From Algibacter pacificus (GTDB lineage Bacteria; Bacteroidota; Bacteroidia; Flavobacteriales; Flavobacteriaceae): DNA of 64,000 nucleotides. The position numbers and the translations under genes were made by a program. The notes under the pieces were generated by a model. That model made no database searches and was not told the origin of the DNA. It was given only the letters and a program-made list of their open reading frames with translations. Positions within the stretch are counted from its first letter, which is position 1; every line of letters starts with the position of its first letter. Location: NCBI RefSeq assembly GCF_008033385.1, contig NZ_VOGY01000003.1:1-64000 (forward strand), given 5' to 3'. Positions 8,628 through 53,002 of the stretch are shown here, in pieces.

Positions 8628-10022
8628 TTACTTCTTTTCAAAATCTTTTTTCAACCGAATTGGACTGTCCGGCACTTTATTAATTAATGTCTTTTTTCCA
8701 TCTTTTTTAATAATTTCAAAAGCGTCGTAAAGTGTTCCTATTGGCGTATAAGCACCATAGTTTATCGTATCTTTAGTTACCGTAATTATTTGAAATAGCT
8801 GTGTATATTCCCCACGTCTAACCATCCATTCTTGATCTTTAGATTCGTACATTTTCGGTCCACTTACAGAAACGGCATATATGGTACCGGCATCTTCTAC
8901 TACAGTTAACCCTCTACCTTCATTCTCAGCATACCCTCGAGCATAGGTATGGTCGTGCCCTTGTAACACCAAATCCACTCCATATTTATCAATTAAAGGT
9001 TTTAAAGCTTCTCTAAGTTCTATGTTATCGCGCCCTTTTGCCGTAGAATAAATAGGGTAATGTGTTGTAATTGCAGTCCATTTTTTGGTATTAGATTGTA
9101 ATACAGAATCCAGCCATTTTATTTGAGCCTCACGGGCTTCCATACTTTCATCGAAACCTTCGCTATCAATAGAAATCACTTTCATATCCTGATAATCGAC
9201 AGCAAAACAGGTTTCTTTTAAAGCTTCTATAGGCCCATTTTCTGGTAATGTAAATTGAGGTCGCCATAGTGACGATAACACACCATCTCTATATTCATGG
9301 TTCCCCGGTGTCATTAAACTAGGTACCGTAGCGTGAATAAAACTTCCCGCATAAAACCATTCGCCCCACTCTAAATTGGCATCTCTATCGTTAATTAAAT
9401 CTCCAGCATGTAGCATAAAATCGACTTGTGGAAATTGACGATATGAATTACGAATTACTCGGGACCATAAGGATTTCACATGGTTTTGTGCATCTCCAAA
9501 ATAGATAAAACTAAAAGACGTTTCGTTTCCTACGTTAGCGGTTTTATATTGAAACCACTCACTCCAATATCCTTCGTTTTGCTCGCCGTTACCAACCCGG
9601 TAAACATAAGTGGTATTTGGGAGTAAACCATCAACCACCGCAGAATGATAGGTTGCTTTTACAAGAGGTTCGTTTCTATTTTGATTTTCAAATTTTTGAG
9701 ATGTAGCATTAACTTGTTTAACATCACGCAATAAAAATTCTGGGCCATCGGTGGCTAAAGCTATTTCAACAACACCTTTGGGCACTTGCTGATCTGTTCG
9801 CCAGTTTACAGCCAAAGTATGTGCCGCATCATTGGTGAGATTTGCAATAATACGATCGGGTGTGCTAGATGGAAATATTAATTTATGCGCTATTATAGAA
9901 TCAAACTCCGGATAATGTGTATGGGTGTGTTCAACACCGTTAGCATGGGTATGCTGCGCTTGTGCAGCAACACTAAACACAACCATAATCACTAAAACAA
10001 TAAAATACTTTTGCCTTTTCAT
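8628..10022 (-). CDS. Purple acid phosphatase-like metallophosphoesterase
   Basis: 464 residues with a signal peptide (ending VAAQAQ at about 23), a fibronectin-like N-terminal domain typical of purple acid phosphatases (TTYVYRVGNGEQN, WSEWFQYKT), and a calcineurin-like catalytic domain. The five metal motifs are visible in order: YFGDAQNH, HAGDLIND, TPGNHEYRDG, TTHYPIYS and LQGHDHTYARGY. It should hydrolyse phosphate esters in the periplasm or outside the cell. Just after the signal peptide lies a histidine-rich stretch, HTHANGVEHTHTH, unusual for the family. It is divergent from the GDPD gene at 10523 and near the SusC/SusD locus, so it may release phosphate from products made there (inference). 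Confidence 0.92.
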   Translation of the reverse strand: MKRQKYFIVLVIMVVFSVAAQAQHTHANGVEHTHTHYPEFDSIIAHKLIFPSSTPDRIIANLTNDAAHTLAVNWRTDQQVPKGVVEIALATDGPEFLLRDVKQVNATSQKFENQNRNEPLVKATYHSAVVDGLLPNTTYVYRVGNGEQNEGYWSEWFQYKTANVGNETSFSFIYFGDAQNHVKSLWSRVIRNSYRQFPQVDFMLHAGDLINDRDANLEWGEWFYAGSFIHATVPSLMTPGNHEYRDGVLSSLWRPQFTLPENGPIEALKETCFAVDYQDMKVISIDSEGFDESMEAREAQIKWLDSVLQSNTKKWTAITTHYPIYSTAKGRDNIELREALKPLIDKYGVDLVLQGHDHTYARGYAENEGRGLTVVEDAGTIYAVSVSGPKMYESKDQEWMVRRGEYTQLFQIITVTKDTINYGAYTPIGTLYDAFEIIKKDGKKTLINKVPDSPIRLKKDFEKK

Positions 10023-10040
10023 TTTAATTTATTTTTAGCT

Positions 10041-10048
10041 CAAAACTA
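10041..10048 (-). promoter_or_regulatory. -7 box TAGTTTTG of the phosphatase gene
   Basis: On the minus strand TAGTTTTG matches TAnnTTTG and lies 18 bases before the ATG at 10022. Confidence 0.5.
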
Positions 10049-10522
10049 TTTTATTACTATTATAAAATCTATATCCCTACATCAACTAATTATTAAATAT
10101 AACCGACCCCATAAAACTTTAAAAAAACACACATGACGCCTTATTAAAAATATTACAGTCATTTAATTAATTCGTGACATAAACTTAAACTAAACATTAA
10201 AATAATTATTTAGTATTGATTTTTTGAATTAAGTCCTCAACCAATGCAATTCGTTTAAAAAAAATAATTTCAATATTTCATAAATCACACTGTCTTTAAA
10301 CAGATTTTTAAATACCATATAAATCTTGATCGCTTCATATAAAAAAACACCTAAATTCATTAAATGGGTTTAAGTATCATACAACACAAATAAGATTTAA
10401 TATTATGGTTATTCTTTATTCAACTTTATTTGTGTTTCAAGAAACAGAACAATAGTTTTTAGTATCAACAATAGATAGCATCAAAAAAAAATGCCCTATT
10501 AAAACTTTTAAAAGCACACAAC
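10049..10522. other. Intergenic region between divergent phosphatase and GDPD genes
   Basis: About 470 very AT-rich bases with no plausible ORF. The only local structure I see is the spaced palindrome TGTTTC-AA-GAAACA at 10433-10446, roughly 80 bases before the GDPD start, which could be an operator. No canonical TAnnTTTG box is visible for the plus-strand gene. Confidence 0.4.
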
Positions 10523-11341
10523 ATGAAAAAAAACAGATCCTTTATTAGAGCCATTTTATTCTTTATTTCTTTTATAATTTTTAATACTTCAGTACTTGGT
10601 CAATCAGAAATGTTACCATCAAAAGGTATTTGCGCACATCGCGGTGCCAACGCCACCCATCCAGAAAACACTATTTCAGCCTTTAAAGAAGCTGTACGCT
10701 TAGGGGCACAAATGATTGAGTTCGATGTGCAACTTACCAAAGACAACCAGCTTATCATCATGCACGATGCTACAGTAGATAGAACCACCAATGGTACAGG
10801 CAAAGTATCCGATTTAACTTTTAATGAAATTCGACAACTCGACGCCGGCGCATGGAAATCTAAAGCGTTTACTGGCGAAAAAGTACCAACGCTGCAAGAA
10901 GTCCTTCAAATCATGCCGAAAACTATATGGCTTAATGTCCATTTAAAAGGCTCTAAAAAAGCAGGACTAATAACAGCCGAAACTATCGTTACCGAAAACA
11001 GAATACTGCAGGCCGTAGTTGCTGGTGGAAAACAAGCGACTAAAATCATAAAGCGGCTATATCCAGGTATTAAAACTTGCAATATGACCCGTTTATCTTC
11101 TCGTGCCAATTACATCAACGAAACCATAAAAAGGAAGGACTATTTTATTCAAATAAAAAGTAGCAGAGATGATGAAAACATGTTAGCTGATATTAAGAAA
11201 CTCAAAGAAAATGGCATTCACATCAATTATTTTCATTCAGAAAAAGAAACTCAAGTACAAGAATTATTAGATGCAGGAGTAGATTTTATTTTAACCGATA
11301 ATTTAGCGGTTATGCTGGAGGCCTTTTCTAACACAAACTAA
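10523..11341 (+). CDS. Secreted glycerophosphodiester phosphodiesterase (GDPD)
   Basis: 272 residues: signal peptide (hydrophobic core at 9-24, about 27 residues in all) and a single GDPD TIM-barrel domain. Catalytic and metal residues are visible: H39 and R40 in AHRGAN, then HPENTISAF, E66 and D68 in IEFDVQ, and H81 in MHDATVDRTTNG. The usual later E-x-K metal ligand segment is LNVHLKG here, as in a recognisable subgroup. The enzyme cleaves glycerophosphodiesters to glycerol-3-phosphate and an alcohol, here in the periplasm. A second GDPD domain occurs at 19871, fused to GH16, which makes phosphodiester cleavage a theme of this region. It is divergent from the phosphatase at 8628. Confidence 0.92.
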   Translation: MKKNRSFIRAILFFISFIIFNTSVLGQSEMLPSKGICAHRGANATHPENTISAFKEAVRLGAQMIEFDVQLTKDNQLIIMHDATVDRTTNGTGKVSDLTFNEIRQLDAGAWKSKAFTGEKVPTLQEVLQIMPKTIWLNVHLKGSKKAGLITAETIVTENRILQAVVAGGKQATKIIKRLYPGIKTCNMTRLSSRANYINETIKRKDYFIQIKSSRDDENMLADIKKLKENGIHINYFHSEKETQVQELLDAGVDFILTDNLAVMLEAFSNTN

Positions 11342-11412
11342 CCGCTTACTAAAAATAGTTTTTAGATATATTCCGCTTATATTTACCCATAATAGAACAA
11401 AACCCCAAAAGA

Positions 11413-11868
11413 ATGAACTTCAGAAAAGCAACAGAACAAGATGTGTCATCCATTATAAAAATGATGGCCGATGATATCCTTGGAAAATCGAGAGAAAACT
11501 TTCAAACCCCTTTACCTATTGCCTATTATAATGCCTTTAAAAAAATAGACTCCGATGACAATCAAGAACTTATTGTTCTCGAAAACGAAAATCTTGAGAT
11601 TATAGGAACACTCCAATTAACCTTTATTCAATATCTTTCTTATGTTGGCAAAAGTAGAGCACAAATAGAAAATGTATTTATTAGAAAAGACAAAAGAGGA
11701 CTTGGCATAGGAAAAACCATGTTTAAATGGGCCATAAATAGAGCCAAAGAAAAAAACGCCCACTTAATACAACTCACCAGCGACAAACAACGACCAAGAG
11801 CTATTAAATTTTACGAAAACCTAGGATTTAAAGCTACGCACGAAGGCATGAAACTTCACTTTGAATAA
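11413..11868 (+). CDS. GNAT family N-acetyltransferase
   Basis: 151 residues with the GNAT fold: N-terminal FRKATEQDVSSIIKMM, beta strands 4-5 around residues 80-110 and the acetyl-CoA pyrophosphate-binding motif A (RKDKRGLGIGKTMFKWAI at about 93-110, containing R-x-x-G-x-G/A). The C-terminal AIKFYENLGFKATHEGMKL is the usual GNAT ending and resembles amino-group acetyltransferases. The substrate cannot be inferred. It lies 71 bases after the GDPD gene and just upstream of the sensor-regulator, with no sign that it works with the polysaccharide locus. Confidence 0.9.
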   Translation: MNFRKATEQDVSSIIKMMADDILGKSRENFQTPLPIAYYNAFKKIDSDDNQELIVLENENLEIIGTLQLTFIQYLSYVGKSRAQIENVFIRKDKRGLGIGKTMFKWAINRAKEKNAHLIQLTSDKQRPRAIKFYENLGFKATHEGMKLHFE

Positions 11869-11911
11869 AAAAAAGCAAACCTTTAATTATAGAATGATTA
11901 CCTTTTCATTT

Positions 11912-11919
11912 TACATTTG
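11912..11919 (+). promoter_or_regulatory. -7 box TACATTTG of the regulator gene
   Basis: TACATTTG lies 33 bases before the ATG at 11953. An alternative upstream TTG start at 11917 would fall inside this box, which supports 11953 as the real start. Confidence 0.6.
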
Positions 11920-11952
11920 TTTTTAATTATTTTTAGAATTTTTTATTTTACA

Positions 11953-14712
11953 ATGAAAATTTTTATTCATTTATTTATATTCCTTTTCACACTGTTAACT
12001 CTAGCCCAAGAGTTACCTCCCATTGTAAAATTTACAACCGACCACTATTCTGCAGGTAATCAAAACTGGATGATTTCGCAAGATGAAAACCAAAATATCT
12101 ATGTGGCCAACAACGACGGATTATTAGTATACAATGGCGCCGAATGGCAAACCTATCCATCACCAAACAAAAGTATTATAAGAGCCGTAAATGTTATTGG
12201 AAATAAAATATACACGGGCTGCTATGCCGATTTTGGGTTTTGGAAAAAAAACACATTTAACACACTAACGTACACATCGTTAACCAAAAAACTTGAATCT
12301 ACAACTTTTAAAGACGATCATGTTTGGAATATTATTGAGCACAATGAATGGGTTATTTTTCAAACTAGTAAAGCGCTCTATTTTTACAACACGGTCAAAA
12401 AAACATTTAAAACCATTTCGTCCACTAATAGTATTTATAAAATATTCAAAGTAAAAAATAAAATATACTACCATGTAGCCAATGAAGGTATCTATGCAGT
12501 TGAAAATGGAAAACCCAAACGTATTGCAACAGATCGTGTTTTACAAACAGATCGTGTTATAAGCATTTTCGATAACCAACAAAGCTTAGGGATTATTACG
12601 CGAAGTTCAGGGTTTTTCAATTTAACAAATCAAGAATTAACAGCTTGGAACATGACTACAGATTCTTTGCTAAATGAAGTTGATATTTTTAGTAGTATTC
12701 AGTTAGAAGATAAAAGCTTTATTCTAGGAACTATATCTGATGGACTCATTCATTTAAACGCAAATGGCGATTTAAACTATCAAATTACTCAAAAAAAAGG
12801 ACTTACCAACAACACGGTTTTATCACTTTTTGAAGATAAAAAGCACCATGTTTGGGCAGGCTTAGATAACGGAATTAATTGCATCAATGTAAAGTCGCCA
12901 GTAAAAACATTTATAGATTATCAAGGCGATTTAGGCACCGTTTACACCACACGCGTTTTTAAAAACAACTTATATATTGGTACAAACCAAGGATTATTTT
13001 ACCGAAAATTACAAGATGTTAATGCCTCTTTTAAATTTATTAAAGGTACGGCAGGACAAGTTTGGGAGCTTTATATTTTTAACAACCAGTATTTATTTTG
13101 TGGCCATCATTTTGGAACTTTCTTAATTGAAGATAATACGGCTAAAAAAATAAACAATACCCTTGGCGCTTGGGCGTTTAAACCCATTCCAAACCACAGT
13201 AATTTATTACTACAAGGAAATTATAGCGGACTTTTAATTCTTGAAAATACAAATGGAAATTGGACATTTAGAAATAAAATTAAAGGTTTCGAAAACTCAT
13301 CCAGATATTTTGAAATAAACCACCTAAACCAAGTTTGGCTAAACCACGAATACAAAGGTGTTTTTAAATTAAAGCTTAATGATGCTTTAACCAAAGTAAT
13401 TCAACTCGACCAGGTAGAAAGCTTGCCTTTTGGCGAAAATTCTAGCCTAATAAGCTATAAAAATAAGGTGCTTTATACTTCGAAAAAAGGCGTTTATAGT
13501 TATAATCAATCTGTTAAAAAATTTCAAAAAGACACCATATTAAGTCAAATTATTACCGAAAATCATCAGCCTGCTGGACGAGTAATAACAGATCGTGCTG
13601 GCAAATTATGGGTATTTTCTCCAAACCAAATGAGCTACATAACAAACGATGATGTTACTAACCAACCCATCATTAACAACATACCCATTCCTTTGCAACT
13701 TCGAAAAGGAATTTCAGGATTTGAAAACATGTCTTTTATCCCCCCTGCCTTGTATATGCTTGGCACCTCAAATGGCTATATTACTTTAGATTTAAATAAA
13801 GTACAAAAAAAAACAGAAAACTCCGTCTATATAAATAGTATAACCTTAAAGACTATTGAAGACAAACTAGCGCCTCAAATTTTATATTCTCATGGTGAAT
13901 TTAAGTACAAATATGGCATGATAACTTTTAACTATGCCTCCCCAGAATACGAAAAATATCTCGACGTAAAATACCAGTATATGCTCGAAGGGCAGGCTAA
14001 TAAATGGAGTAAATGGACCACACAACCACAAGTTACTTTCGAGAATTTAACCTTTGGAAACTACACCTTTAAAGTTAGAGCTAAAATTGGGAACAACTTA
14101 ACTAAAAACACAGCAACTTATAGTTTTACAGTAAATCGCCCCTGGTATTTTACTTACACTGCTTTAGCTATTTACTTTCTTTTACTTATAGTCATCGTTT
14201 TTATAACCCATAAAGCATACAAACGCCACTACAATAAAAAATTCGAAAAAGAACAGATGGAAAGCGAACAGCTTATTATGCAGATGAAAAATGAAAAACT
14301 AAACCAAGATATTGAAAGTAAAAATAGAGAACTCGCTATTTCTACCATGAGTATTATTAAAAAAAATAAAGTTTTAAACAAGATTAAAAAAGAAATTAAA
14401 AATAAAGACAACATTGCGGCCATAAAACTCATTGACAATAATATAAATAATAATAAAGATTGGTCCTTTTTTGAGAAAGCTTTTAATAATGCTGATAAAG
14501 ATTTCTTTGAAAAAATTAAAACAAAGCACCCAGATTTAACCCCAAACGATTTACGTTTTTGTGCTTATTTAAGACTTAATTTATCATCTAAAGAAATGGC
14601 GCCTCTTTTAAACATTTCAACTAAAAGTGTCGAAACAAAACGTTACCGTTTACGCAAAAAATTAGGTTTAGACCGCGATGACAGTCTAGTTAACTATATG
14701 TTAAAGTTTTAG
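11953..14712 (+). CDS. Membrane-spanning sensor with beta-propeller, Y_Y_Y and LuxR-type HTH
   Basis: 919 residues from the ATG at 11953. Order of parts: signal peptide or anchor (MKIFIHLFIFLFTLL); about 600 residues of periplasmic beta-propeller repeats of the Reg_prop type (VWNIIEHNEW, VWAGLDNGIN); a Y_Y_Y domain (YKYGMITFNYASPEY, YMLEGQANKWSKW); one membrane span (LAIYFLLLIVIVFI, about 740-755); a coiled-coil linker; and a C-terminal LuxR-like helix-turn-helix (LTPNDLRFCAYLRLNLSSKE, LLNISTKSVETKRYRLRKKL). It lacks kinase and receiver domains, so it is a one-component relative of hybrid sensors. Its place directly before susC suggests that it senses the locus substrate and activates the locus. 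Confidence 0.88.
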   Translation: MKIFIHLFIFLFTLLTLAQELPPIVKFTTDHYSAGNQNWMISQDENQNIYVANNDGLLVYNGAEWQTYPSPNKSIIRAVNVIGNKIYTGCYADFGFWKKNTFNTLTYTSLTKKLESTTFKDDHVWNIIEHNEWVIFQTSKALYFYNTVKKTFKTISSTNSIYKIFKVKNKIYYHVANEGIYAVENGKPKRIATDRVLQTDRVISIFDNQQSLGIITRSSGFFNLTNQELTAWNMTTDSLLNEVDIFSSIQLEDKSFILGTISDGLIHLNANGDLNYQITQKKGLTNNTVLSLFEDKKHHVWAGLDNGINCINVKSPVKTFIDYQGDLGTVYTTRVFKNNLYIGTNQGLFYRKLQDVNASFKFIKGTAGQVWELYIFNNQYLFCGHHFGTFLIEDNTAKKINNTLGAWAFKPIPNHSNLLLQGNYSGLLILENTNGNWTFRNKIKGFENSSRYFEINHLNQVWLNHEYKGVFKLKLNDALTKVIQLDQVESLPFGENSSLISYKNKVLYTSKKGVYSYNQSVKKFQKDTILSQIITENHQPAGRVITDRAGKLWVFSPNQMSYITNDDVTNQPIINNIPIPLQLRKGISGFENMSFIPPALYMLGTSNGYITLDLNKVQKKTENSVYINSITLKTIEDKLAPQILYSHGEFKYKYGMITFNYASPEYEKYLDVKYQYMLEGQANKWSKWTTQPQVTFENLTFGNYTFKVRAKIGNNLTKNTATYSFTVNRPWYFTYTALAIYFLLLIVIVFITHKAYKRHYNKKFEKEQMESEQLIMQMKNEKLNQDIESKNRELAISTMSIIKKNKVLNKIKKEIKNKDNIAAIKLIDNNINNNKDWSFFEKAFNNADKDFFEKIKTKHPDLTPNDLRFCAYLRLNLSSKEMAPLLNISTKSVETKRYRLRKKLGLDRDDSLVNYMLKF

Positions 14713-14977
14713 TAACATTACAACCCCCTTTTTCACCACAACATTACCACTACAACAGCTGGAACCTCCTTATTTTATTGACTTACTGTTTGTTTTTTTT
14801 TAAAACATTGTTTAACCGTTTTTACAAGTGGTTCCCGTCGAGATTAGTTGTTTTTTACATTGAATTAATACCATGTTCGTTTTTTATCGGCACTAAAAAA
14901 CTACAGCCTTATTACGCCTCCATATTAAGTTTACATAGACTTAATTTTATTTCTGAGTTAAAAATTTAATCAAGTTT
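14713..14977. other. Intergenic region upstream of susC
   Basis: About 265 bases between the regulator and the susC promoter. The only open frame here (63 codons at 14778) reads as non-coding, with no recognisable protein. No clear hairpin or repeat is visible. It is the natural place for the regulator's binding site, which I cannot define. Confidence 0.4.
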
Positions 14978-14985
14978 TAATTTTG
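14978..14985 (+). promoter_or_regulatory. -7 box TAATTTTG of susC
   Basis: TAATTTTG fits TAnnTTTG and lies 25 bases upstream of the susC ATG at 15011. No good -33 TTG is seen, in keeping with a promoter that needs an activator. Confidence 0.5.
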
Positions 14986-15010
14986 ACACCAAACTTAAAA
15001 CAATATTTTT

Positions 15011-18000
15011 ATGAAACTAAAACGATGTAATCAAAAAACAAAAACACTACTGTGTACACTGTTTTTGTTTGTGGCTACAATGTCGATGACACAAGCTCAA
15101 AATATAATAAACGGAATCGTACTAGACGAAACAGGAACACCTTTACCTGGCGCTTCAGTAATTCTAAAAGGAACTAATAATGGAACCTCCACCGATTTTG
15201 ATGGTAAGTTTTCCATAAATGTAACAAAAGATGATACTATTTTAGAAGTATCCTACGTTGGCTATATCACTAAAGATGTTGCTATTTCTAACACTCCTAT
15301 AACTATTAAACTACAACCAGATATTAAAGCTCTGGATGAAGTTGTAGTAACAGCCTTAGGAATAAAAAGGGAACAAAAAGCACTAGGCTATTCAGTACAA
15401 GAAATTAGTGGAGAAACTATTCAAAAAGTTTCTGGTGTAGATGTAGGAACCTCTCTTTCTGGTAAAGTGGCAGGGCTTTTAGTAAACAACTCTACAGATT
15501 TTAACACTGCCCCTGAAATCACTATTAGAGGAGAAGAACCGTTATTAGTTATAGATGGTATTGCATACCAAAATAGAACACTAAGCGATATTTCTTCAGA
15601 AGATATTGAATCTATGTCTGTATTAAAAGGTGCTACCGCATCGGCATTATATGGTTTTCGCGGTGCTAATGGCGCTATTTTAATTACATCAAAAAATGGA
15701 AGCACTGGTAAAAATGGTTTTAGTGTAGATTTAACAACCAACACTATGTTTTCTGCTGGGTTTTTGGCCATTCCGGAAAGACAAAATATTTATGGTCGTG
15801 GCACCAACAACACCTATAACATTAACCAAGACCAATCTTGGGGACAAGTTATGGATGGTTCTATTCAAACACAATGGGACCCAATCGCTAAAGAATTTAG
15901 AGACTTTGAATATATAGCAAGAGGAAAAAACAATTTTAAAAACTTTTTAGAACAAGGTTATATTACTAATAACAACATTAGTATAGCCTTTAAGGAAGAT
16001 AAAATAGCCTTAAGAAGTTCGCTAAATTGGATTGAACAAAAAGGACAATATCCTAATTCTAAATTAAACAAGTTCACCTATTCTTTTGGAGGTGATGTTA
16101 ATTTAGATAAATTTAAACTAAGTTCTAACCTATCATATTCTAAAAGAGAATCGCCAAATATGGGTTCTAACGGTTATACATCCTACGATCCTATGTATTC
16201 TTTATTAATTTGGAGCCCTATGGATTGGGATGTGCGTGATTATAAAGATAACTATTGGTTAATTCCTGGAGAACTACAAAATAACCATTATGGATACGAT
16301 TTTGAGAACAATAAATACAGTGGAAAAAACCAAAACACGCCGTATTTTGATAGATATCAAAAAATAAATGAAGTTTCTCGAGATATCTTTAATGCCGATT
16401 TATCAATGAATTACGATATCAGTAATTGGTTAAAAGCAACCGTACGCTCTGGTTTAGATTTTTATGTAGATCGTGGGCAACTTAGAGTATCTAAAGGATC
16501 TTACACCTCTACCGGAAACACCTCGGTACCAGGAACATCTTCCACATGGAATGGCTCTAGAACTGGAGCCTACGTAACAGGAAAAAGTCAAGGTTTCAGT
16601 ATTAATAATGATTTATTACTTTCTGGATCACAAAAACTTTTAGACAATAAACTTGAAGTAGAATACCTTACTGGTGGAACCATTTATTACCAAAGAAACG
16701 ATAATTTAAATGCAAGTACTTCTGGAGGAATTTCTATTCCAGAGTTTTTCTCACTAAACGCCTCGGTTAACCCCGCTGTGGTAAACGAAAGTATAACTCA
16801 ACAACAGGTAAACTCTGTATTTGGACGTTTAGGTATATCATGGAACAAATTAATTTATGCAGATATTACAGCACGTAACGACTGGAGTTCTACACTAACA
16901 GGTCCAGGAGTTGAGGGGTCTAAAAAATCTTATTTTTACCCATCCTTTTCTGGAAGCTTTGTCGTTTCAGAATTAATAAAAGAATCTACAAGAGACTGGC
17001 TAGATTTATTAAAGATAAGAAGTTCATGGACAAAATCTAAAAAACCAGCAGGCATCTATGATATTAATAGTGTTTTTAACACATCACCAGGTACTTGGAA
17101 TGGTTTAAATGGCGCTAGCGCTCCTAATAATTTATATAATTTGTCTAGCATTAGCCCAGAAAGTGCAAATACTTTAGAAATGGGATTACAAGCTATGTTT
17201 CTAAAAAAACGCTTAACAGTTGATGTATCTTACTACAAGAAACACATGTACGATTTTTTACAAACAGGTGCTCTATCGGCAACCTCAGGATACACAGGAG
17301 TAGTACTTAATAAAGACGATGAAATAGATCGTAAAGGTTGGGAAGTCGCTGTTAGTGGAACCCCTATAAAAACAGACAATCTACAATGGAATCTTGGCCT
17401 TAACTGGTCAACATACAAAGATGTTTATGCCAAAATAGACCAAACTTATACTCAAAACGATAGCAAACCTTGGATTAAAGTAGGCGAACGTACCGATCAT
17501 TATGTAGGTAAAGATTTCATGACCGCTCCAGGCACTAACGATTATGTTTACAGCAATGGTAGAATTGTAAAAAACCCATATAATACCGTTTTTGGTTACG
17601 CTAACCCAGATTGGATATGGGGAGCAAACTCGACATTAACTTATAAAAATTTAAGTTTATTTATATCTTTTGATGGTTTAGTTGGTGGTCTTTCTAGCTC
17701 TAGAACTGAAAGTTATATGTGGCAATCGGGTGTACATCCAGATTCTGCAACGCCAGAAAGAGCATTAGACGTAGCGACACCAGGATCTTCAAATTATATT
17801 GGTGAAGGCGTTATGGTTACTAGCGGAACGGTTGAGTTTGATACCGATGGCACTATACTTAGCGATACCCGTGTTTTTGAAACCAATACTGTAGCAACCA
17901 CTTATTTAAGAGCCGTTAAAGATTTACACGCCAGTAGCGCATGGGGTGGCACAGGAACTACAACCGATGCTTTTTCAAGAACCTATCTTAAGTTACGAGA

Positions 18001-18196
18001 ACTATCTTTAAGCTATCAAATCCCTTCAAAACTATTAACTGGTTGGGGCGCTAAAAAAGCATCTATTAGTTTAACAGGTCAAAATGTACTCTTATGGGCT
18101 AAGGATTATAAATATTCAGATCCAGATAACAGAGTAGAAGATTTTGCCGATCCATCAGTAAGATATCTTGGAGCCAATCTTAAACTTTCATTTTAA
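15011..18196 (+). CDS. SusC/RagA-type TonB-linked outer-membrane transporter
   Basis: 1061 residues, normal for SusC-like proteins. Signal peptide (ending AQAQ at about 30); a carboxypeptidase-regulatory-like beta-sandwich (GIVLDETGTPLPGASVILKG, then FDGKFSINV and VSYVGYITKDV); a TonB box region (LDEVVVTALGIKRE); a plug with GFRGANGAILITSKNG; and a long beta-barrel ending SVRYLGANLKLSF with the terminal phenylalanine. It imports oligosaccharides across the outer membrane using TonB energy, as a complex with the SusD-like lipoprotein encoded 59 bases downstream. Neighbouring genes suggest a beta-glucan ligand with phosphodiester decoration (inference). Confidence 0.96.
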   Translation: MKLKRCNQKTKTLLCTLFLFVATMSMTQAQNIINGIVLDETGTPLPGASVILKGTNNGTSTDFDGKFSINVTKDDTILEVSYVGYITKDVAISNTPITIKLQPDIKALDEVVVTALGIKREQKALGYSVQEISGETIQKVSGVDVGTSLSGKVAGLLVNNSTDFNTAPEITIRGEEPLLVIDGIAYQNRTLSDISSEDIESMSVLKGATASALYGFRGANGAILITSKNGSTGKNGFSVDLTTNTMFSAGFLAIPERQNIYGRGTNNTYNINQDQSWGQVMDGSIQTQWDPIAKEFRDFEYIARGKNNFKNFLEQGYITNNNISIAFKEDKIALRSSLNWIEQKGQYPNSKLNKFTYSFGGDVNLDKFKLSSNLSYSKRESPNMGSNGYTSYDPMYSLLIWSPMDWDVRDYKDNYWLIPGELQNNHYGYDFENNKYSGKNQNTPYFDRYQKINEVSRDIFNADLSMNYDISNWLKATVRSGLDFYVDRGQLRVSKGSYTSTGNTSVPGTSSTWNGSRTGAYVTGKSQGFSINNDLLLSGSQKLLDNKLEVEYLTGGTIYYQRNDNLNASTSGGISIPEFFSLNASVNPAVVNESITQQQVNSVFGRLGISWNKLIYADITARNDWSSTLTGPGVEGSKKSYFYPSFSGSFVVSELIKESTRDWLDLLKIRSSWTKSKKPAGIYDINSVFNTSPGTWNGLNGASAPNNLYNLSSISPESANTLEMGLQAMFLKKRLTVDVSYYKKHMYDFLQTGALSATSGYTGVVLNKDDEIDRKGWEVAVSGTPIKTDNLQWNLGLNWSTYKDVYAKIDQTYTQNDSKPWIKVGERTDHYVGKDFMTAPGTNDYVYSNGRIVKNPYNTVFGYANPDWIWGANSTLTYKNLSLFISFDGLVGGLSSSRTESYMWQSGVHPDSATPERALDVATPGSSNYIGEGVMVTSGTVEFDTDGTILSDTRVFETNTVATTYLRAVKDLHASSAWGGTGTTTDAFSRTYLKLRELSLSYQIPSKLLTGWGAKKASISLTGQNVLLWAKDYKYSDPDNRVEDFADPSVRYLGANLKLSF

Positions 18197-18255
18197 TAAA
18201 ACTAAATGAATTCAAATAGTTTTAAAGCCTACCAATAACATATAAATAAAAACAA

Positions 18256-19782
18256 ATGAAACTTTTAAAATATATATTCTTTATAATAGCCTTGCTGGCT
18301 ATAACATATTCTTGTGAGAATTTCGAAGAAATAAACACAAACCCAGATACTTCAACAGTTGTTGCCCCAGATATGCTAGCCACTCAGGTTTTAAAAAACA
18401 CATTTACAATGAATGGAAGCGGCATCTTTGATTTTGTTTCAGAAAACTTGTTTAACAAGCATGTTGCTGCATTAGATCCAAGTATACCAAGTTCCAACCA
18501 GTATTACTACGTTAATTTTGGTAGCTTTAGCAATTACAGTATGTTAACCGACTTAAACTTTATGACACAATTTGCAGAAGGAAACCAAGCAGAACCTTCT
18601 TATAAAGGTTTAGCGTTATTCTTAAAAGCATATTATGGATTCAATGCCACTTTGGCTATGGGCGATGTTCCATATTCTGAAGCAGGCATGGCTAACAAAG
18701 GCATAACTAGACCTGCTTACGACACACAATCCGAGGTAATTACTCAAATTTTAAACGATTTAGAACTAGCCGAAACTTACTTCGCTGAAGGCTTTAATTT
18801 TAGTGGTGATATTATGTTTAATGGAGATGCTAGTAAATGGCAAAAGCTATGTAATGCGATGCAATTAAAAGTGATACAAACCATAAGCAAAAAAGCTACA
18901 GCCGATCAAAAAACACGTTTTGCAGCCATTGTAAATGCTAACAATTTACTGGAAGGTAACGATGATAATTTTAAATTGGTTTACACCAAAATGGCAAATA
19001 CCAACCATCAATTCCATAATGGTGAAAACCTAAGAATTAATACAGCCATCTCTAAATTAACTGCCGATTTCTTAAAAACAAATAAAGATCGTAGACTATT
19101 TTATTTTGCTGAACCTGCTCCCAAATTATTAGCAGCCGGAAAGTCTGCTTCAGATTTTGATGCTTATCAAGGCGCTCTAACATCATTAGACCCAACAACA
19201 TTAGCTTTTAACAAAGAGAATGGCGATTACTCTTTTATTAATTCACGTTATGTTGATTTTATGGATGGTGAACCATTATTACGCTTTACCTATGCCGAAC
19301 AATGCTTTATAATTGCAGAAGCAATTGAGGAAGGCTGGGTAACCGGGAATGCACAAAACTATTACGAAAATGGTGTAAAAGCAATGCTGAAATATTATAT
19401 GGAATTACCCAACACAGCCGGTTATATTCACGGTATGGCTATCGACCAAAATTATATAGACAATTATTTTACAGGAACCGCCGCTTATGCAACCGCTGGA
19501 ACTAAAAACGATAGACTAAAACAAATTTTAACCCAAAGATGGCTAATCGATTTCTTACAAGCAAACGGCGGAAATTACCCTCAATTTTTACGCACAGGTT
19601 ACCCCGAATATCCATTAGATCCAGAAACAAGTTTAAATCCTGATGATACTTCGGTGTATCCAAAACGTTGGAAATACCCAACATCGGAACAAACAACAAA
19701 CCCTGAAAATTATCAAAAAGCCATTAACGATCAATACGACGGCTATGATGGTGTTAATAAAACACCATGGTATTTACAGTAA
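18256..19782 (+). CDS. SusD/RagB-type nutrient-binding lipoprotein
   Basis: 508 residues with a lipoprotein signal (AITYSC, lipidated C20) and the start ENFEEINTNPDTS, typical of the SusD-like_2 subfamily. TPR-like helical segments (YKGLALFLKAYYGFNATLAMGD, ASKWQKLCNAMQLKVIQTIS) and the C-terminal LTQRWLIDFLQANGGNYPQFLR and YPKRWKYPTSEQ are family features. It sits on the outside of the outer membrane as the lid of the SusC transporter and binds glycan. A strong terminator 30 bases after the stop separates susCD from the enzyme genes, so susCD may be more abundant than the enzymes. Confidence 0.95.
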   Translation: MKLLKYIFFIIALLAITYSCENFEEINTNPDTSTVVAPDMLATQVLKNTFTMNGSGIFDFVSENLFNKHVAALDPSIPSSNQYYYVNFGSFSNYSMLTDLNFMTQFAEGNQAEPSYKGLALFLKAYYGFNATLAMGDVPYSEAGMANKGITRPAYDTQSEVITQILNDLELAETYFAEGFNFSGDIMFNGDASKWQKLCNAMQLKVIQTISKKATADQKTRFAAIVNANNLLEGNDDNFKLVYTKMANTNHQFHNGENLRINTAISKLTADFLKTNKDRRLFYFAEPAPKLLAAGKSASDFDAYQGALTSLDPTTLAFNKENGDYSFINSRYVDFMDGEPLLRFTYAEQCFIIAEAIEEGWVTGNAQNYYENGVKAMLKYYMELPNTAGYIHGMAIDQNYIDNYFTGTAAYATAGTKNDRLKQILTQRWLIDFLQANGGNYPQFLRTGYPEYPLDPETSLNPDDTSVYPKRWKYPTSEQTTNPENYQKAINDQYDGYDGVNKTPWYLQ

Positions 19783-19811
19783 AAAAATATTAAAATTCAA
19801 AACATCTTAAA

Positions 19812-19847
19812 AATCTAAAGGCATCATATATTGCCTTTAGATTTTTT
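19812..19847 (+). terminator. Rho-independent terminator after susD
   Basis: Perfect 12-base stem AATCTAAAGGCA / TGCCTTTAGATT with an 8-base loop, followed by six T residues. It stands between susD and the GDPD-GH16 gene, which starts 24 bases later. I see no separate TAnnTTTG box for the latter, so read-through from susCD is likely. Confidence 0.88.
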
Positions 19848-19870
19848 ATCATTTCAAAAACAAAGAAATC

Positions 19871-21451
19871 ATGTCGAAATTTAAGAGCCTCCTATTTTTC
19901 ACACTGCTCCTTACCTGTTTATTTTCTTGCGATAAAAGCACAAATAAAAAAATAATTTTTGCCAATAATATAGTTATTGCCCATCGTGGCGCTTGGCAAA
20001 CAGATGGCCTTCCCAAAAACTCTATAGCATCCCTAAGAAAAGCTATCGATTTAGGTTGCGTAGGTTCGGAATTTGATATTCGCATGACGGCCGATAGTGT
20101 TCTAATTGTAACTCACGATGCCGATTATAACGGATTAGACATTGAAACTTCAAACTTTGAAACCTTATCTAAACACAAACTTTCAAACGGAGAACCCCTA
20201 CCAACCTTTAAACAATATTTGCAAGCAGGTATAACAAACAACACCTCAACAGGCCTTGTTTGCGAAATTAAACCTTCAAAATTTAAAGAAAGAAATAGTT
20301 TTATAGCAGCACAAGTTTTAGCAACTGTAAAAGAATTGAACGCAGAACCATACATACTATCCTACATAAGCTTTAGTTATGATGTGCTTAAACAAATAAA
20401 AACATTAGACAACACGGCTAAAACACAATATCTTGATGGCTCCAAAACGCCAGAAACCCTAAAGAAAGATGGTATTTCGGGATTAGATTATTCAGTTGGC
20501 AATCTAAAAAAACATTCCGATTGGATAGACAGCGCCAAAAACCATGCGTTAATTTTAAACGCGTGGACCGTAAATAAAACCGAAGATATCGATTGGCTTA
20601 TAGCACATAATTTTGACTATATTACTACCGATAATCCCGAATTGGTTTTCGAGCGCGTAAAAAAAAGCCCCTTAAACCAAGGATACCAATTAGTTTGGAA
20701 CGATGAATTTAATTACAACGGAAAACCAGACAACACAAAATGGGGTTACGAAACAGGGTTAATAAGAAATGTTGAAAAACAATATTATGTAGATAGCTTA
20801 AAAAATGCCCGAGTTGAAAAAGGTCTTTTAATTTTAGAAACTCACAAAGAGCAAATTAAAAATTCAGCCTTTGTTTCTAAAGAGGATAAAGATTGGAAAA
20901 AACAATGGGAATTTGCCGAGTATACCGCACCAAGCCTAACCACAAAAAACATAGCGCAATGGACGTATGGACGTATAGAAATTAGAGCACAACTACCAAA
21001 AGGCACCGGGCTTTGGCCTGCATTTTGGATGCTTGGCACCAATTACAACGAGGTAAAATGGCCAGAATGTGGCGAAATAGATATTATGGAACATGTTGGT
21101 TTTAATCCCGATTCAATTTTTGGAACCATCCACAGCAAAGCCTATAACCACATGAAAGGCACACAAAAAGGAAAAAAAATACACATTAAAAAACCGTATG
21201 ATACTTTTCACATTTTCGCCATAGAATGGACGCCTGAAAAAATAGATTTTATTTTAGACGATACCATTTATAACCATATAGAAAACGAACATAAAACAAC
21301 CGCCGAATGGCCTTTCGATCAAGATTTTTATCTTAAAATGAATATTGCTGTGGGTGGTATGCTTGGCGGAAAAAAAGGTATTGATGATAGCGTATTTCCA
21401 CAAAAAATGCTCATCGATTATGTTCGCGTTTTTCAATTAAAAAACAATTAG
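19871..21451 (+). CDS. GDPD-GH16 fusion lipoprotein (phosphodiesterase plus beta-glucanase)
   Basis: 526 residues with a lipobox (LFSC, lipidated C20). Residues about 33-265 form a glycerophosphodiester phosphodiesterase domain: H38 and R39 in AHRGAW, E67 and D69 in SEFDIRMT, H82 in THDAD, and EIKPSK as a later ligand; the common PENT motif is PKNS here. Residues 272-526 form a glycoside hydrolase family 16 domain (YQLVWNDEFNYNGKPDNTKW, WTYGRIEIRAQLPKG, GLWPAFWMLG) with the catalytic EIDIME, nucleophile E402 and acid/base E407. GH16 of this type cleaves beta-1,3 or mixed beta-glucans. The fusion suggests one surface or periplasmic enzyme that removes a phosphodiester substituent and cuts the backbone. 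No frameshift is seen, so the fusion looks real. Confidence 0.93.
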   Translation: MSKFKSLLFFTLLLTCLFSCDKSTNKKIIFANNIVIAHRGAWQTDGLPKNSIASLRKAIDLGCVGSEFDIRMTADSVLIVTHDADYNGLDIETSNFETLSKHKLSNGEPLPTFKQYLQAGITNNTSTGLVCEIKPSKFKERNSFIAAQVLATVKELNAEPYILSYISFSYDVLKQIKTLDNTAKTQYLDGSKTPETLKKDGISGLDYSVGNLKKHSDWIDSAKNHALILNAWTVNKTEDIDWLIAHNFDYITTDNPELVFERVKKSPLNQGYQLVWNDEFNYNGKPDNTKWGYETGLIRNVEKQYYVDSLKNARVEKGLLILETHKEQIKNSAFVSKEDKDWKKQWEFAEYTAPSLTTKNIAQWTYGRIEIRAQLPKGTGLWPAFWMLGTNYNEVKWPECGEIDIMEHVGFNPDSIFGTIHSKAYNHMKGTQKGKKIHIKKPYDTFHIFAIEWTPEKIDFILDDTIYNHIENEHKTTAEWPFDQDFYLKMNIAVGGMLGGKKGIDDSVFPQKMLIDYVRVFQLKNN

Positions 21452-21454
21452 AAA

Positions 21455-22300
21455 ATGAAGTATTATTCCATAATAGTATTCGTATTAATCATGAATTTAC
21501 AAAGTTGTAAAACTAAAATCATGTCTTCAAATATTAAAGTAATGACCTACAACATCCGTTTAGATGTTGCTTCCGATGGTGAAAATGCCTGGCCAAACCG
21601 AAAGGATTTTTTAAGCAGTCAGGTATTATTTAACGCTCCCGATATTATGGGTGTTCAAGAAGCAAAACCAAACCAAATGAGTGATTTAAAGGCGGCTTTA
21701 AAAAACTACAAAACCATTGGGACGGGTCGTGATGGTGAAAATAAAGGTGAATTTTCGGCTATTTTTTATAATTCAGAAACAGTAAAAGTTGAAAAAGAAA
21801 ATACCTTTTGGCTATCCGAAACTCCAAATAAAATCTCACAGGGTTGGGATGCTGCCTGTCCTAGAATTTGCACATACGGCTTATTTACTCATTTGGAAAC
21901 CCATCAAAAATTTTGGGTGTTTAACACCCATTTAGACCATAAAGGCCAACAAGCGCAACTTAAAGGTATGGCTCTAATTCAAGAGAAAATAAAAACTATA
22001 AATACAAATAATTTACCGGTGATTTTAACTGGCGATTTTAATGTGGAACCGGATAGTGAATTAATTACCAAACTAAAACAAACCATGAACGACTCTAAAG
22101 ATATCGCAAAATTATCTTTTGGATCTAACGGTACTTTTAATGGTTTTAAGTTTAACGAATTGGTTACCCGAAGAATTGATTATATTACCGTCTCAAAAAA
22201 CAATATTGAAGTAGAAAAATATGGTGTTTTATCTAGTGCCGTTAATTTAAAATATGCTTCAGATCATTTTCCTGTTTTAACCGAATTAAAAATTAAGTAA
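21455..22300 (+). CDS. Endonuclease/exonuclease/phosphatase family lipoprotein
   Basis: 281 residues, lipoprotein signal with C18 (NLQSC). Motifs of the DNase I-like phosphatase fold: MTYNIRLD, E69 in GVQEAKPNQM, NTHLDHKG, D194 and N196 in TGDFNVEPDS, RRIDYITVS, and D270 H271 in ASDHFPVL. Exported members of this family in Bacteroidota act as phosphodiesterases or phosphatases rather than nucleases. It begins four bases after the GDPD-GH16 stop and 12 bases before the GH3 gene, so the three enzymes form one operon. It may handle the phosphorylated group released from the glycan (inference). Confidence 0.9.
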   Translation: MKYYSIIVFVLIMNLQSCKTKIMSSNIKVMTYNIRLDVASDGENAWPNRKDFLSSQVLFNAPDIMGVQEAKPNQMSDLKAALKNYKTIGTGRDGENKGEFSAIFYNSETVKVEKENTFWLSETPNKISQGWDAACPRICTYGLFTHLETHQKFWVFNTHLDHKGQQAQLKGMALIQEKIKTINTNNLPVILTGDFNVEPDSELITKLKQTMNDSKDIAKLSFGSNGTFNGFKFNELVTRRIDYITVSKNNIEVEKYGVLSSAVNLKYASDHFPVLTELKIK

Positions 22301-22311
22301 CCAACTCCTTT

Positions 22312-24636
22312 ATGAAAATATCCAACACCCTTTTAAAATTTTTATGCATTTTTAGCGTCGTCTTTTTAGTGATTAGTTTTAAAAACCAAGACCCTAAAAA
22401 AAAGACTAATCCCCCAAAAAGTGATTCCATAACTCAAAAAGTGGATTCGGTTTTAGCCTTAATGCATCTAAATGAAAAAATTGGGCAATTGGTGCAATAT
22501 GCTGGAAAATGGGATGCTACTGGGCCAACATCAACACAAAACGACCAATACAAACTTAAAAAACTCAAAAACGGAGAAGTTGGTTCTATGCTCAATATTA
22601 CTTCGGTAAAAAGTATTCGAGAAACTCAGAAAATAGTCATGGAACATTCCCGACTTAAAATTCCGCTTATTTTTGCTTACGATGTTATTCACGGTTATCA
22701 AACTATTTTCCCCATTCCACTGGGAGAAACAGCCAGTTGGGATTTAGAAGCTATGGAATTATCGGCCGCTATTGCAGCCAAAGAAAGTGCGGCGGCTGGG
22801 TTAAACTGGACCTTTGCTCCAATGATTGATGTGTCTCGAGATGCACGATGGGGCAGAGTTATGGAAGGTGCTGGCGAAGATCCTTACTTAAATTCGGTAG
22901 TTGGCGTGGCTCGTATTAAAGGGTTGCAAGGTGACGATTTATCTAATAATTTCAAAATTGCAGCTTGCGCAAAACATTTTGCCGGTTACGCTTTTGCTGA
23001 AGCAGGACGTGATTACAATACGGTTAATATTGGAACAAACGAACTATACAACACCATCCTACCACCGTTTAAAGCCGCTGCAGATGCAGGCGTAGCAACC
23101 TTTATGAATGCCTTTAATGATATTGATGGTATTCCTGCTACGGGACACAAAGGCTTACAACGCGATTTATTAAAAGGCACTTGGGGTTGGGATGGTTTTG
23201 TTGTTTCAGACTGGGGTTCTATTGGTGAAATGGTTACTCACGGTTACGCAGAAAACAAAAAACACGCCGCAGAAATCGCTTTAAATGCAGGGAGTGATAT
23301 GGATATGGAATCTTATGCTTACGAAACGCATTTGGAAGAGTTGCTTTCCGAAAACAAAATAACTATAAATCAAATTGACGATGCCGTAAAACGTGTTTTA
23401 AAATTAAAATTTGAACTTGGTCTTTTTGATGACCCTTACAAATACTGTAACGAACAACGCGAAAAAGATGAGATTTACACTAAAGAAAACCTAGCAATAG
23501 CGCGAGATGTTGCAAAAAAATCTATCGTATTACTTAAAAATGAAAACAAACAATTACCCTTATCAAAATCCATTAAAAGCATTGCCGTTATTGGACCATT
23601 AGCCAACGACAAAGACACCCCCTTAGGAAATTGGCGCGCTAAAGGCAGTTATAATTCCGCAGTATCATTACTCGAAGGCGTAAAACAGGCGGTTGACAAA
23701 AATACCGTAATTCATTATGCCAAAGGTGTCGATTTAACGGTACCTACAGCAAAAGCTGGAACCAATCAATTTGCCCGTCAATTAAAATTCAACACCACCG
23801 ACACGACTGGTATTGCCGAATCTGTTGCTGCGGCAAAAAAATCGGATGTTGTGTTATTGACCATTGGTGAAAATGCCTATCAAACGGGAGAAGGTCGTAG
23901 CCAAACTCATATTGGATTTTTGGGATTACAAAACGATTTATTAGAAGCCATTTATAAAGTGAACCAAAATATTGTTGTGGTTTTAATGAACGGTCGCCCT
24001 ATGGATTTACGTCGTGTTTCCGAAATTACACCAGCCATTTTAGAGTGCTGGCATTTAGGATCGCAAGCAGGAAACGCCATTGCCGATGTGGTTTTTGGTG
24101 ATTATAATCCATCGGGGAAATTACCCATGTCTTTTCCTTATGATGTTGGACAAATGCCTTTATATTATAACCAGAAAAATACGGGACGACCATCTAGCCA
24201 AAATATGGTAACATATTCAGGATATCAAGATGCTCCAAAAACAGCTTTGTATCCTTTTGGTTTTGGTTTGAGTTACACACAATTTTCATATAAAAACCTA
24301 TTATTAAGTGCAAACGACATGCCTATACACGGCGAAATTAAAGTAAGTGTAGATATTACAAATACAGGTGATCAAGCTGGAGAAGAAGTTGTTCAACTTT
24401 ACATCCGTGATATCACAGGGAGTTTTATTAGACCCATAAAAGAATTAAAAGGCTTCGAAAAACTGATGCTAAACGCTGGCGAAACTAAAACCGTTACGTT
24501 CAATATAAATGCCGAAATGCTTCAGTTTTATACGGCCAATAAAAAATGGGAAGTAGAACCTGGGAAATTCAATGTTTGGGTTGGTGGCGATTCGACAACC
24601 ACACTAAAAGCGTCCTTTTCGGTGAAGAAAGATTAA
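22312..24636 (+). CDS. bglX: Glycoside hydrolase family 3 beta-glucosidase (BglX-like)
   Basis: 774 residues: signal peptide, the GH3 TIM barrel (GLNWTFAPMIDVSRDARWGR, AACAKHFAGYAFAEAGRDYN), the catalytic nucleophile D300 in VVSDWGS, the alpha/beta sandwich domain (LLTIGENAYQTGEGRSQ, LMNGRPMDLRRVS) and a C-terminal fibronectin-III-like domain (VSVDITNTGDQAGEEVVQLYIRD). The length and domain order match periplasmic BglX. It removes terminal beta-linked glucose from oligosaccharides, which fits downstream processing of GH16 products imported by SusCD. It is the last gene of the enzyme operon. Confidence 0.94.
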   Translation: MKISNTLLKFLCIFSVVFLVISFKNQDPKKKTNPPKSDSITQKVDSVLALMHLNEKIGQLVQYAGKWDATGPTSTQNDQYKLKKLKNGEVGSMLNITSVKSIRETQKIVMEHSRLKIPLIFAYDVIHGYQTIFPIPLGETASWDLEAMELSAAIAAKESAAAGLNWTFAPMIDVSRDARWGRVMEGAGEDPYLNSVVGVARIKGLQGDDLSNNFKIAACAKHFAGYAFAEAGRDYNTVNIGTNELYNTILPPFKAAADAGVATFMNAFNDIDGIPATGHKGLQRDLLKGTWGWDGFVVSDWGSIGEMVTHGYAENKKHAAEIALNAGSDMDMESYAYETHLEELLSENKITINQIDDAVKRVLKLKFELGLFDDPYKYCNEQREKDEIYTKENLAIARDVAKKSIVLLKNENKQLPLSKSIKSIAVIGPLANDKDTPLGNWRAKGSYNSAVSLLEGVKQAVDKNTVIHYAKGVDLTVPTAKAGTNQFARQLKFNTTDTTGIAESVAAAKKSDVVLLTIGENAYQTGEGRSQTHIGFLGLQNDLLEAIYKVNQNIVVVLMNGRPMDLRRVSEITPAILECWHLGSQAGNAIADVVFGDYNPSGKLPMSFPYDVGQMPLYYNQKNTGRPSSQNMVTYSGYQDAPKTALYPFGFGLSYTQFSYKNLLLSANDMPIHGEIKVSVDITNTGDQAGEEVVQLYIRDITGSFIRPIKELKGFEKLMLNAGETKTVTFNINAEMLQFYTANKKWEVEPGKFNVWVGGDSTTTLKASFSVKKD

Positions 24637-43157: not shown

Positions 43158-43959
43158 TTTTTTGTTTCGTTTTTACAAGAAAATGTTCCTTAAAAAACAC
43201 GAGCATACTCCCTATGGATTTTATAGTAGAAAACCCCAAACCTTTTTTGTACACCCAATAATTATGCTTAACCAACCCTAATTTATTGGCAGACATAGAA
43301 TTTTCGTGAATACGATAATACGCAAGCGACTCCTGAATGCCTTTGGCTGGTTTTCCCGACTTTTTAATAGCAGCTAACCATAATAACCAATCCTGTCTTT
43401 TACGTGTATTAACGGTTGTTATTTTACCTAAATTCGTTACATTATAGATTCCTGTTAAATTACCAATATAATTACTTTTTAAAAGTTTTGAATAGGTTAA
43501 TGTTTTTAGCGCTATAATCCTTTTATTTATAGAATTTCCTTCTTTATTTATTAAATCGTAACTAGAAAAGCAAACATCGCATTCTTGGTTTTGCATAAAA
43601 GAAATTTGTTTTTCTAGCTTGTTTGGCTTCCATAAATCATCAGAATCTAAAAAAGCTATATAATCACCTTTTGAGACTTGAATACCGTTATTTCTAGAAA
43701 CGGCAGCACCATAATTATCACTGTTTTTAAGAAGTTTTATATTAGGGTGAAGTTTTAAAAAAGGATTAATAATGTGCCATGTATTATCACTTGAACAATC
43801 GTCAACGAGTATTAACTCCCAGTTTTTGTAAGTTTGATTTATAACACTATTTATGGCATCTAAAATATAGGCCTCAGAATTAAACATAGGTATTATTACT
43901 GAAACCAAAGGATTCAAACTATTATCATTAATACGCTTTTTCTTCTCCTTTAATGGCAT
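43138..43959 (-). CDS. Family 2 glycosyltransferase
   Basis: 273 residues of GT-A type with the nucleotide-binding start VSVIIPMFNSEAYILDAINS, DDCSSDNTW, and the metal-binding DSDDLW (D-x-D type) at about 102-107. It belongs to the short GT2 proteins that add one sugar to a polyprenyl-linked repeat unit in the cytoplasm. Its start overlaps the end of the glycosylphosphotransferase gene by 32 bases, so they are coupled. The final gene of the operon, it meets the CapK gene tail to tail. Confidence 0.92.
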   Translation of the reverse strand: MPLKEKKKRINDNSLNPLVSVIIPMFNSEAYILDAINSVINQTYKNWELILVDDCSSDNTWHIINPFLKLHPNIKLLKNSDNYGAAVSRNNGIQVSKGDYIAFLDSDDLWKPNKLEKQISFMQNQECDVCFSSYDLINKEGNSINKRIIALKTLTYSKLLKSNYIGNLTGIYNVTNLGKITTVNTRKRQDWLLWLAAIKKSGKPAKGIQESLAYYRIHENSMSANKLGLVKHNYWVYKKGLGFSTIKSIGSMLVFFKEHFLVKTKQKIKINKI

Positions 43960-45283: not shown

Positions 45284-45337
45284 ATCTGATTATTTTATAT
45301 AATTATTAATATTTTAACTATTCTATTATATACCTTA

Positions 45338-49919: not shown

Positions 49920-49984
49920 TACTCAAAATGAATTTAAAATATATAAATTTGTTATACAGTGCTTTATTTTTTAAACAACACAAT

Positions 49985-52374: not shown

Positions 52375-52378
52375 ATTT

Positions 52379-53002
52379 TTAATTATTTATTTTGTGAAAT
52401 AAATTTATATCGTACATTTTATCCATATTTTTAATAAACTCCGCTTTGGTTAGATTATAGACTTTTTTCTCTTCTAAAATGTCTATATATTCTCTTTCAA
52501 ATCGAAAACGTTTATGTGTTGCTGGGTTACCAGCAACTATAGAATATGGTTCTACATTTTTAGTAACTACGCTCCCTGCTCCAATTATTGCTCCGTTACC
52601 TATTTTTGTAACTGAAGGCAAAATGATTACATTTCCACCAATCCAAACATCATGACCTACCACTAACTTATATCTATTAATAGTTTCCTTTTCAACAAGT
52701 CCAAGTGTTGTATTGTACAAAAAAGGATGCGTAGTGGCCCAATCTATACCATGATTTCCGTTAAAAATTTTAATTCCGTCTGCAAAAGAACAGTAATTCC
52801 CTATAATAGTTCCGTTGGGTATATCTTTTGTAAAACAACCATAAGAAAAAGTGCCAACTTCAATGTTTCTAACTTTCTTAAAATAAGCCCTTAATGTTTT
52901 TGAATATATTTGATTACGCCGTAAAATAAAGAGTATAATTTTCTCTAGAAAGATAATTTTAGATAAAAAGATAATTACTTTTAATTTCATATTTAACATC
53001 AT
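52379..53002 (-). CDS. Hexapeptide-repeat O-acetyltransferase (CatB/XAT-like)
   Basis: 207 residues. Left-handed beta-helix turns are visible (IGNYCSFADGIKIFNGNHGI, VVGHDVWIGGNVIILPSV, IGNGAIIGAGSVVTKNVEPY), with the catalytic-type histidine in NGNHGIDWATTHPF and the ending IVAGNPATHKRF. Such enzymes transfer acetyl from acetyl-CoA to sugars or polysaccharides. The start may be 53002 or the methionine five codons later. It sits between Wzx and the pyruvyl transferase, consistent with decoration of the glycan by acetyl groups. Confidence 0.9.
   Translation of the reverse strand: MMLNMKLKVIIFLSKIIFLEKIILFILRRNQIYSKTLRAYFKKVRNIEVGTFSYGCFTKDIPNGTIIGNYCSFADGIKIFNGNHGIDWATTHPFLYNTTLGLVEKETINRYKLVVGHDVWIGGNVIILPSVTKIGNGAIIGAGSVVTKNVEPYSIVAGNPATHKRFRFEREYIDILEEKKVYNLTKAEFIKNMDKMYDINLFHKINN

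Follow-up and report, generated by a model that had tools for sequence, protein, structure and literature searches.

Laminarin use by North Sea Flavobacteriia has been described in the form of a polysaccharide utilization locus (PUL), variant A, that combines GH16-GH3-GH16 enzymes with a SusC/SusD pair (SusCD; PMC6298971). A comparable locus lies at positions 11917-24636 of a 64,000-nucleotide stretch of the Algibacter pacificus genome (contig NZ_VOGY01000003.1, positions 1 to 64,000; hereafter the window) and consists of a sensor, SusC, SusD, a GDPD-GH16 fusion lipoprotein, a lipoprotein of the endonuclease/exonuclease/phosphatase (EEP) family and a GH3. It shares with variant A the SusCD pair, a GH16 of the beta-1,3(4)-glucanase type and the GH3, but its GH16 is fused to a GDPD, and GDPD, EEP and glycerol genes go unnamed in the main text of the North Sea survey. 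The second related system is the use of beta-1,2-glucan with GH144 (CpSGL of Chitinophaga, 5GZH): sister loci of this type share a GDPD clade, GH3 and SusCD with the window locus, but GH144 takes the place of GH16 as their backbone enzyme, and a phosphodiesterase is unmentioned in the consulted part of a review of that system (PMC11842490). Single components also have solved counterparts. The protein 7WW4/7WWC, known here from its entry titles (a multidomain beta-1,3(4)-glucanase, without and with laminaritriose), shares both domains and their order with the fusion from end to end, at 46% identity, and the mannosyl-6-phosphatase 4C1R, named for a mannan substrate, belongs to the EEP family like the window protein. 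No paper on 7WW4/7WWC was found, and no description of a GDPD-GH16 or GDPD-GH144 PUL was found in the titles and abstracts of the open-access papers listed by the searches, itself a weak absence.

The original prediction for this DNA had at its core a SusCD locus acting on a beta-glucan decorated with phosphodiesters, and this core is supported: the GDPD-GH16 and EEP genes are conserved together with SusCD, and two associations that lay beyond its view, with glycerol catabolism and with GH144, add to it. We propose, with a probability of about 0.58, that the locus is a PUL for a beta-1,3-(1,6)-glucan carrying glycerol phosphodiesters, that is, a system of a known kind that would follow a new substrate logic. 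What we observed is the gene content, the integrity of the active-site residues, the conservation of synteny and the association with glp genes and with GH144; from this we infer the substrate, the order of the steps and all activities.

Results

The fusion protein (19871-21451, + strand) carries its GDPD domain (2e-21, approximately residues 33-262) and its GH16 domain (1e-23, approximately residues 267-523) within one open reading frame, and its AlphaFold model has a mean pLDDT of 87.9 and a pTM of 0.85. H38, R39, E67, D69, H82, E132 and K134 of the GDPD half, which we take to be the catalytic His/Arg, the metal-binding Glu-x-Asp, the second His and the Glu-x-Lys motif, are kept in 13/13 full-length fusions aligned, where E402, D404 and E407 (ExDxxE motif) of the GH16 half are likewise invariant. 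The seven GDPD residues are moreover intact in 118/118 relatives. The best match to the fusion in both sequence and structure is 7WW4/7WWC, and the structures nearest to its GH16 half (7WW4, SCLam and the R. marinus laminarinase) are of the laminarinase type.

A tandem SusC-SusD pair with linked GH16, GH3 and sensor-regulator genes marks the locus as a predicted PUL; an ordinary laminarin PUL would hold beta-glucan enzymes only and no phosphodiesterase, whereas here a GDPD is fused to the GH16. The SusC-type TonB-dependent transporter (15011-18196, +; TIGR04056, 506 bits, over the cut-off), the SusD-like_2 surface glycan-binding lipoprotein (18256-19782, +; PF12771, 5e-59), the fusion, the EEP lipoprotein (21455-22300, +; PF03372 (Exo_endo_phos), 2e-16, catalytic motifs present) and a BglX-like GH3 beta-glucosidase (22312-24636, +; PF00933/PF01915, 4e-65; NF011678, 780 bits for a cut-off of 666) follow one another with gaps of 59, 88, 3 and 11 bases, so that the region from SusC to GH3 (15011-24636) is probably a single operon. 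Lipobox-like motifs are found in SusD, the fusion and the EEP. The latter has 3MPR and 4C1R (E 8e-51 for 4C1R) as its nearest solved structures and is likely a sugar- or glycerol-phosphate phosphatase. The sensor-regulator gene (11917-14712, +) ends 298 bases upstream of SusC; its reading frame opens with a TTG, an internal ATG 36 bases downstream being the likelier start. The product has Reg_prop/Y_Y_Y domains and a sub-threshold C-terminal LuxR-type helix-turn-helix, and no histidine-kinase domain was matched in the domain search. Counting the window, the cluster analysis has 17 loci in which a sensor of this type adjoins SusC.

To follow the block among relatives, 397 genomes of the family were searched with the fusion; 36 matched at E<=1e-60, and 36 loci were fetched from these. 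Full-length fusions occur in 13 of the 397 genomes, counting the window. The recurring order is sensor-SusC-SusD-GDPD-GH16-EEP-(sulfatase)-GH3, GDPD and GH16 being sometimes separate adjacent genes, and two SusD families (PF12771 and PF07980) alternate while GDPD-GH16-EEP remain. A scan of named genomes gave at least 79 loci, among the best 80 of a longer list, from Flavobacteriaceae to Saprospiraceae, Runella, Pedobacter and Chitinophagaceae. In a phylum-wide search with the GDPD domain, 43/395 genomes matched at E<=1e-65; combined with the earlier loci, this gave 128 loci of the GDPD clade, or 118 once 10 near-identical ones were dropped, a gene being counted as present when it lies within 9.5 kb and contig ends lowering the counts. 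SusCD is nearby in 33 fusion loci, 5 loci with a split GH16, 13 with GH144 and 13 others; it is not nearby in 25 fusion loci and 29 others. EEP accompanies 25 and GH3 18 of the 33 non-redundant fusion loci with SusCD. As a control, 20 loci chosen from GH16-only matches contained SusC in 12 cases and EEP in 5, and 0/20 had glp genes or this GDPD clade. In Pedobacter (L090-L110 and others) the fusion mostly stands without SusCD nearby. In another family of the order, five loci (L275, L277, L278, L279 and L281) combine the GDPD with neighbouring SusC, SusD and metallophosphoesterase genes but lack any recognised glucanase, and are perhaps glycerophosphodiester uptake loci.

Glycerol catabolism is one of the two associations mentioned above. 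The same clusters hold an MIP channel and a glycerol kinase, each over its cut-off (that of TIGR00861 for the channel), as well as a GlpD-like dehydrogenase that scores under its own, and GlpF is near 14/33 of the non-redundant fusion loci with SusCD versus 0/12 of the GH16-only loci with SusCD. Twenty-two genomes were picked by hand (21 of the 36 matching genomes and one of the same genus without the fusion): GlpK is present in 17, and glpK lies <=12.3 kb from the GDPD in 10 of these 17 (G125, G209, G134, G119, G314, G244, G157, G070, G225 and G133), which is not an unbiased rate because the genomes were picked after GlpF had been seen in some of their loci. The position of glpK follows at least four arrangements: 5' of the sensor, 5' of SusC where there is no sensor, 3' of the PUL, or beside a GDPD-GH16 without SusCD. 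SusC and SusD are found <=9.2 kb from glpK in 7/17 genomes, other SusCD pairs near glpK not having been sought in the remaining 7, versus 1/40 control glpK loci (Fisher p 5e-4, ancestry ignored), the controls being the 40 best-scoring loci from genomes without a fusion match, a non-random set with some windows cut by contig ends. The one positive control is L182, which has both SusC and SusD; L220 has SusC alone. GDPD with GH97 makes a third kind of locus in three genomes (G094, G336 and G373), with glpK 10-12 kb away. At a recurring chromosomal spot, glpF-glpK lies near a different GDPD (L186, L191, L207, L208, L211, L212, L217, L219 and L220), and a spot that looks similar holds PUL-type GDPD or GH16 genes in L048, L057, L058 and L084.

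The other association ties the same GDPD clade physically to a glucanase of another backbone type. The 13 GH144 loci with SusCD among the 118 carry GH3 in 11 cases, and those GH144 proteins that were tested are closely related to 5GZH, an endo-beta-1,2-glucanase. The pairing was followed in 165 genomes of a single genus, that of G127, which is taken to be Flavobacterium since its member G568 gave a locus near-identical to L148 (Flavobacterium sp. ALJ2): 67 match GH144, 36 match the GDPD profile, and GH144 lies 3.2-4.6 kb from 28/37 GDPD hits, or 28/31 strong ones. A tree of the GDPD (119 rows, short search, 45/116 inner branches open and a very long outgroup branch, with the deep order unsure) places the window fusion within two starred sets, one of 27 and one of 34 rows; on it, the glp neighbourhood changes at least 12 times and GH144 at least 4 times, of which the starred branches force only 1.

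The nine genes originally called at 8628-24636 are indeed open reading frames at these coordinates, including one left unnamed at the time, a GNAT by domain search (11413-11868). The original prediction had grouped four phosphorus-ester enzymes with SusCD; the fusion GDPD and the EEP are conserved there, whereas the other two are not. The purple-acid-phosphatase-like enzyme (8628-10022, - strand; purple-acid-phosphatase N domain and metallophosphatase domain) lies on the opposite strand, was found in 0/36 relative loci fetched and is ruled out as a member of the block. The standalone secreted GDPD (10523-11341, +; GDPD 3e-41) is ruled out as well: its kin occur in 3/36 loci (L048, L051 and L068; 28-38% identity), a His replaces the clade's Glu132 of the Glu-x-Lys motif, placing it in a different subfamily, and its nearest solved kin are ordinary GDPDs. 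A caveat is L068, where a weak relative adjoins the SusC-SusD-GH16 set.

Discussion

The gene set suggests the following scheme. SusC and SusD would bind and import glucan pieces, while the GDPD domain of the fusion would take glycerol-phosphate (or glycerol) off the glucan and its GH16 domain, in the same molecule, would cut the backbone. The EEP might dephosphorylate either a glucan left with phosphate or the released glycerol-phosphate; alternatively, because its family includes a solved mannosyl-6-phosphatase, it may clear phosphate remaining on glucose. GH3 would convert the oligosaccharides to glucose and, in many relatives, GlpF, GlpK and GlpD would take up and oxidise the glycerol, the gain for A. 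pacificus being mainly glucose and phosphate. Osmoregulated periplasmic glucans (OPGs) carry phosphoglycerol (PMC10514313, PMC11842490), in groups derived from the head groups of phosphatidylglycerol (PMC10434233), and OPGs, cyclic glucans and algal glucans are all candidate substrates for the window locus. The glycerophosphate derived from phosphatidylglycerol is sn-1, and GlpQ, itself a GDPD, is strict for sn-3 (PMC7086022). Glycerol-1-phosphate released from an sn-1 substrate would not feed GlpD directly, so that EEP, then GlpF, GlpK and GlpD would be needed; the set present in many relatives would fit such a substrate, which also requires a GDPD that accepts sn-1.

The strictness of GlpQ is one of several points that weigh against a PUL for a glycerophosphorylated beta-glucan. 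Others are the 25 non-redundant fusion loci without SusCD nearby, mostly from Pedobacter, and the 29 GDPD-clade loci with neither fusion nor SusCD. Some GDPD-SusCD loci contain a metallophosphoesterase and lack a recognised glucanase, and glp genes are within reach in 0/13 GH144 loci. Some relatives also have sulfatases with a CxPSR motif, which suggests that some target glycans are sulfated as well and thus bear a second substituent. The GDPD-GH16 architecture is not new, since 7WW4/7WWC already has it, and the acid phosphatase and the first GDPD have dropped out of the set of four enzymes from which the proposal started. The EEP is present in 5/20 GH16 loci without GDPD; it is therefore not special to GDPD loci and is ruled out as a marker of phosphodiester use. 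Finally, the A. pacificus genome (99.9% complete) gave no match to GlpK, GlpF or Dak1 (dihydroxyacetone kinase), so that the foreseen recovery of glycerol does not hold for this organism, whether by GlpF/GlpK or through Dak1; its sole GlpD match is divergent and lies on another contig, and a GlpT-like hit reaches 45 bits for a cut-off of 632. The interpretation as a whole is thus supported in its core and not in what concerned the acid phosphatase, the first GDPD, the specificity of the EEP and glycerol recovery here.

Among the EEP-bearing GH16 loci without GDPD (L291, L295, L300, L301 and L302), four of the five carry GH30, and L295 reads sensor, SusC, SusD, GH2, GH16, EEP, GH3. Beta-glucan use may involve the EEP independently of any phosphodiester.

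Some of these observations would also suit an ordinary laminarin locus, in which GDPD and EEP would salvage the phosphorus and glycerol of phospholipid head groups that lysing algal cells set free along with glucan, and the fusion simply joins two enzymes needed together. The best matches of the GH16 are laminarinases, the EEP occurs in GDPD-free GH16 loci, GDPD-SusCD loci without recognised glucanase exist, and GDPDs are classically enzymes of glycerophosphodiesters. We nevertheless consider this explanation unlikely, as the same GDPD clade lies near an endo-beta-1,2-glucanase in 28/31 strong Flavobacterium hits and beta-1,2-glucan is not known as a storage glucan of algae; in addition, the words "phosphodiesterase", "phosphatase" and "glycerol" are absent from the main text of the North Sea laminarin PUL survey (PMC6298971). 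The target could instead be another glycan containing glycerol phosphate, either a capsule or lipoteichoic acid, which is built of glycerol phosphate and in B. subtilis has a Glc-beta-1,6-Glc linker (PMC7086022). GH30 kin of endo-beta-1,6-glucanase do occur in some relatives, but in just 2/33 fusion loci with SusCD as judged by HMM, and the fusion of the GDPD with a GH16 of the laminarinase type implies that the backbone is a beta-1,3-glucan, whereas a teichoic acid would not need this GH16; we regard such a target as quite improbable. Still less probability attaches to a beta-1,3/1,6-glucan with phosphocholine or phosphoethanolamine, the diester being cut by the GDPD. The cyclic beta-1,3/1,6-glucan of Bradyrhizobium does carry phosphocholine, but the loci are accompanied by catabolic genes for glycerol (choline and ethanolamine catabolism genes were not searched for), and no result favours phosphocholine over phosphoglycerol.

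Coming back to glycerol phosphodiesters on a glucan, it is tempting to speculate that the GDPD clade found across Bacteroidota is a glycan-deglycerophosphorylating enzyme that moves between PULs and is paired in each with the glucanase suited to the backbone (GH16 for beta-1,3, GH144 for beta-1,2). Bacteroidota would in this way feed on periplasmic and cyclic glucans that other bacteria substitute with phosphoglycerol, gaining glucose, phosphate and, if they have glpFKD, glycerol. We hold this wider proposal tentatively, at somewhat less than even odds. If correct, it suggests what a recurring but so far unassigned set of PULs may act on, names a candidate enzyme for the removal of phosphoglycerol from glucans, and makes the envelope glucans of other bacteria a food for Bacteroidota.

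Elsewhere in the window (43928-56487, - strand) lies a low-GC polysaccharide biosynthesis cluster with a Bac_transf sugar transferase, a group 1 glycosyltransferase, a Wzy_C O-antigen ligase, an FrhB/FdhB-type protein and an RmlA-like nucleotidyl transferase.

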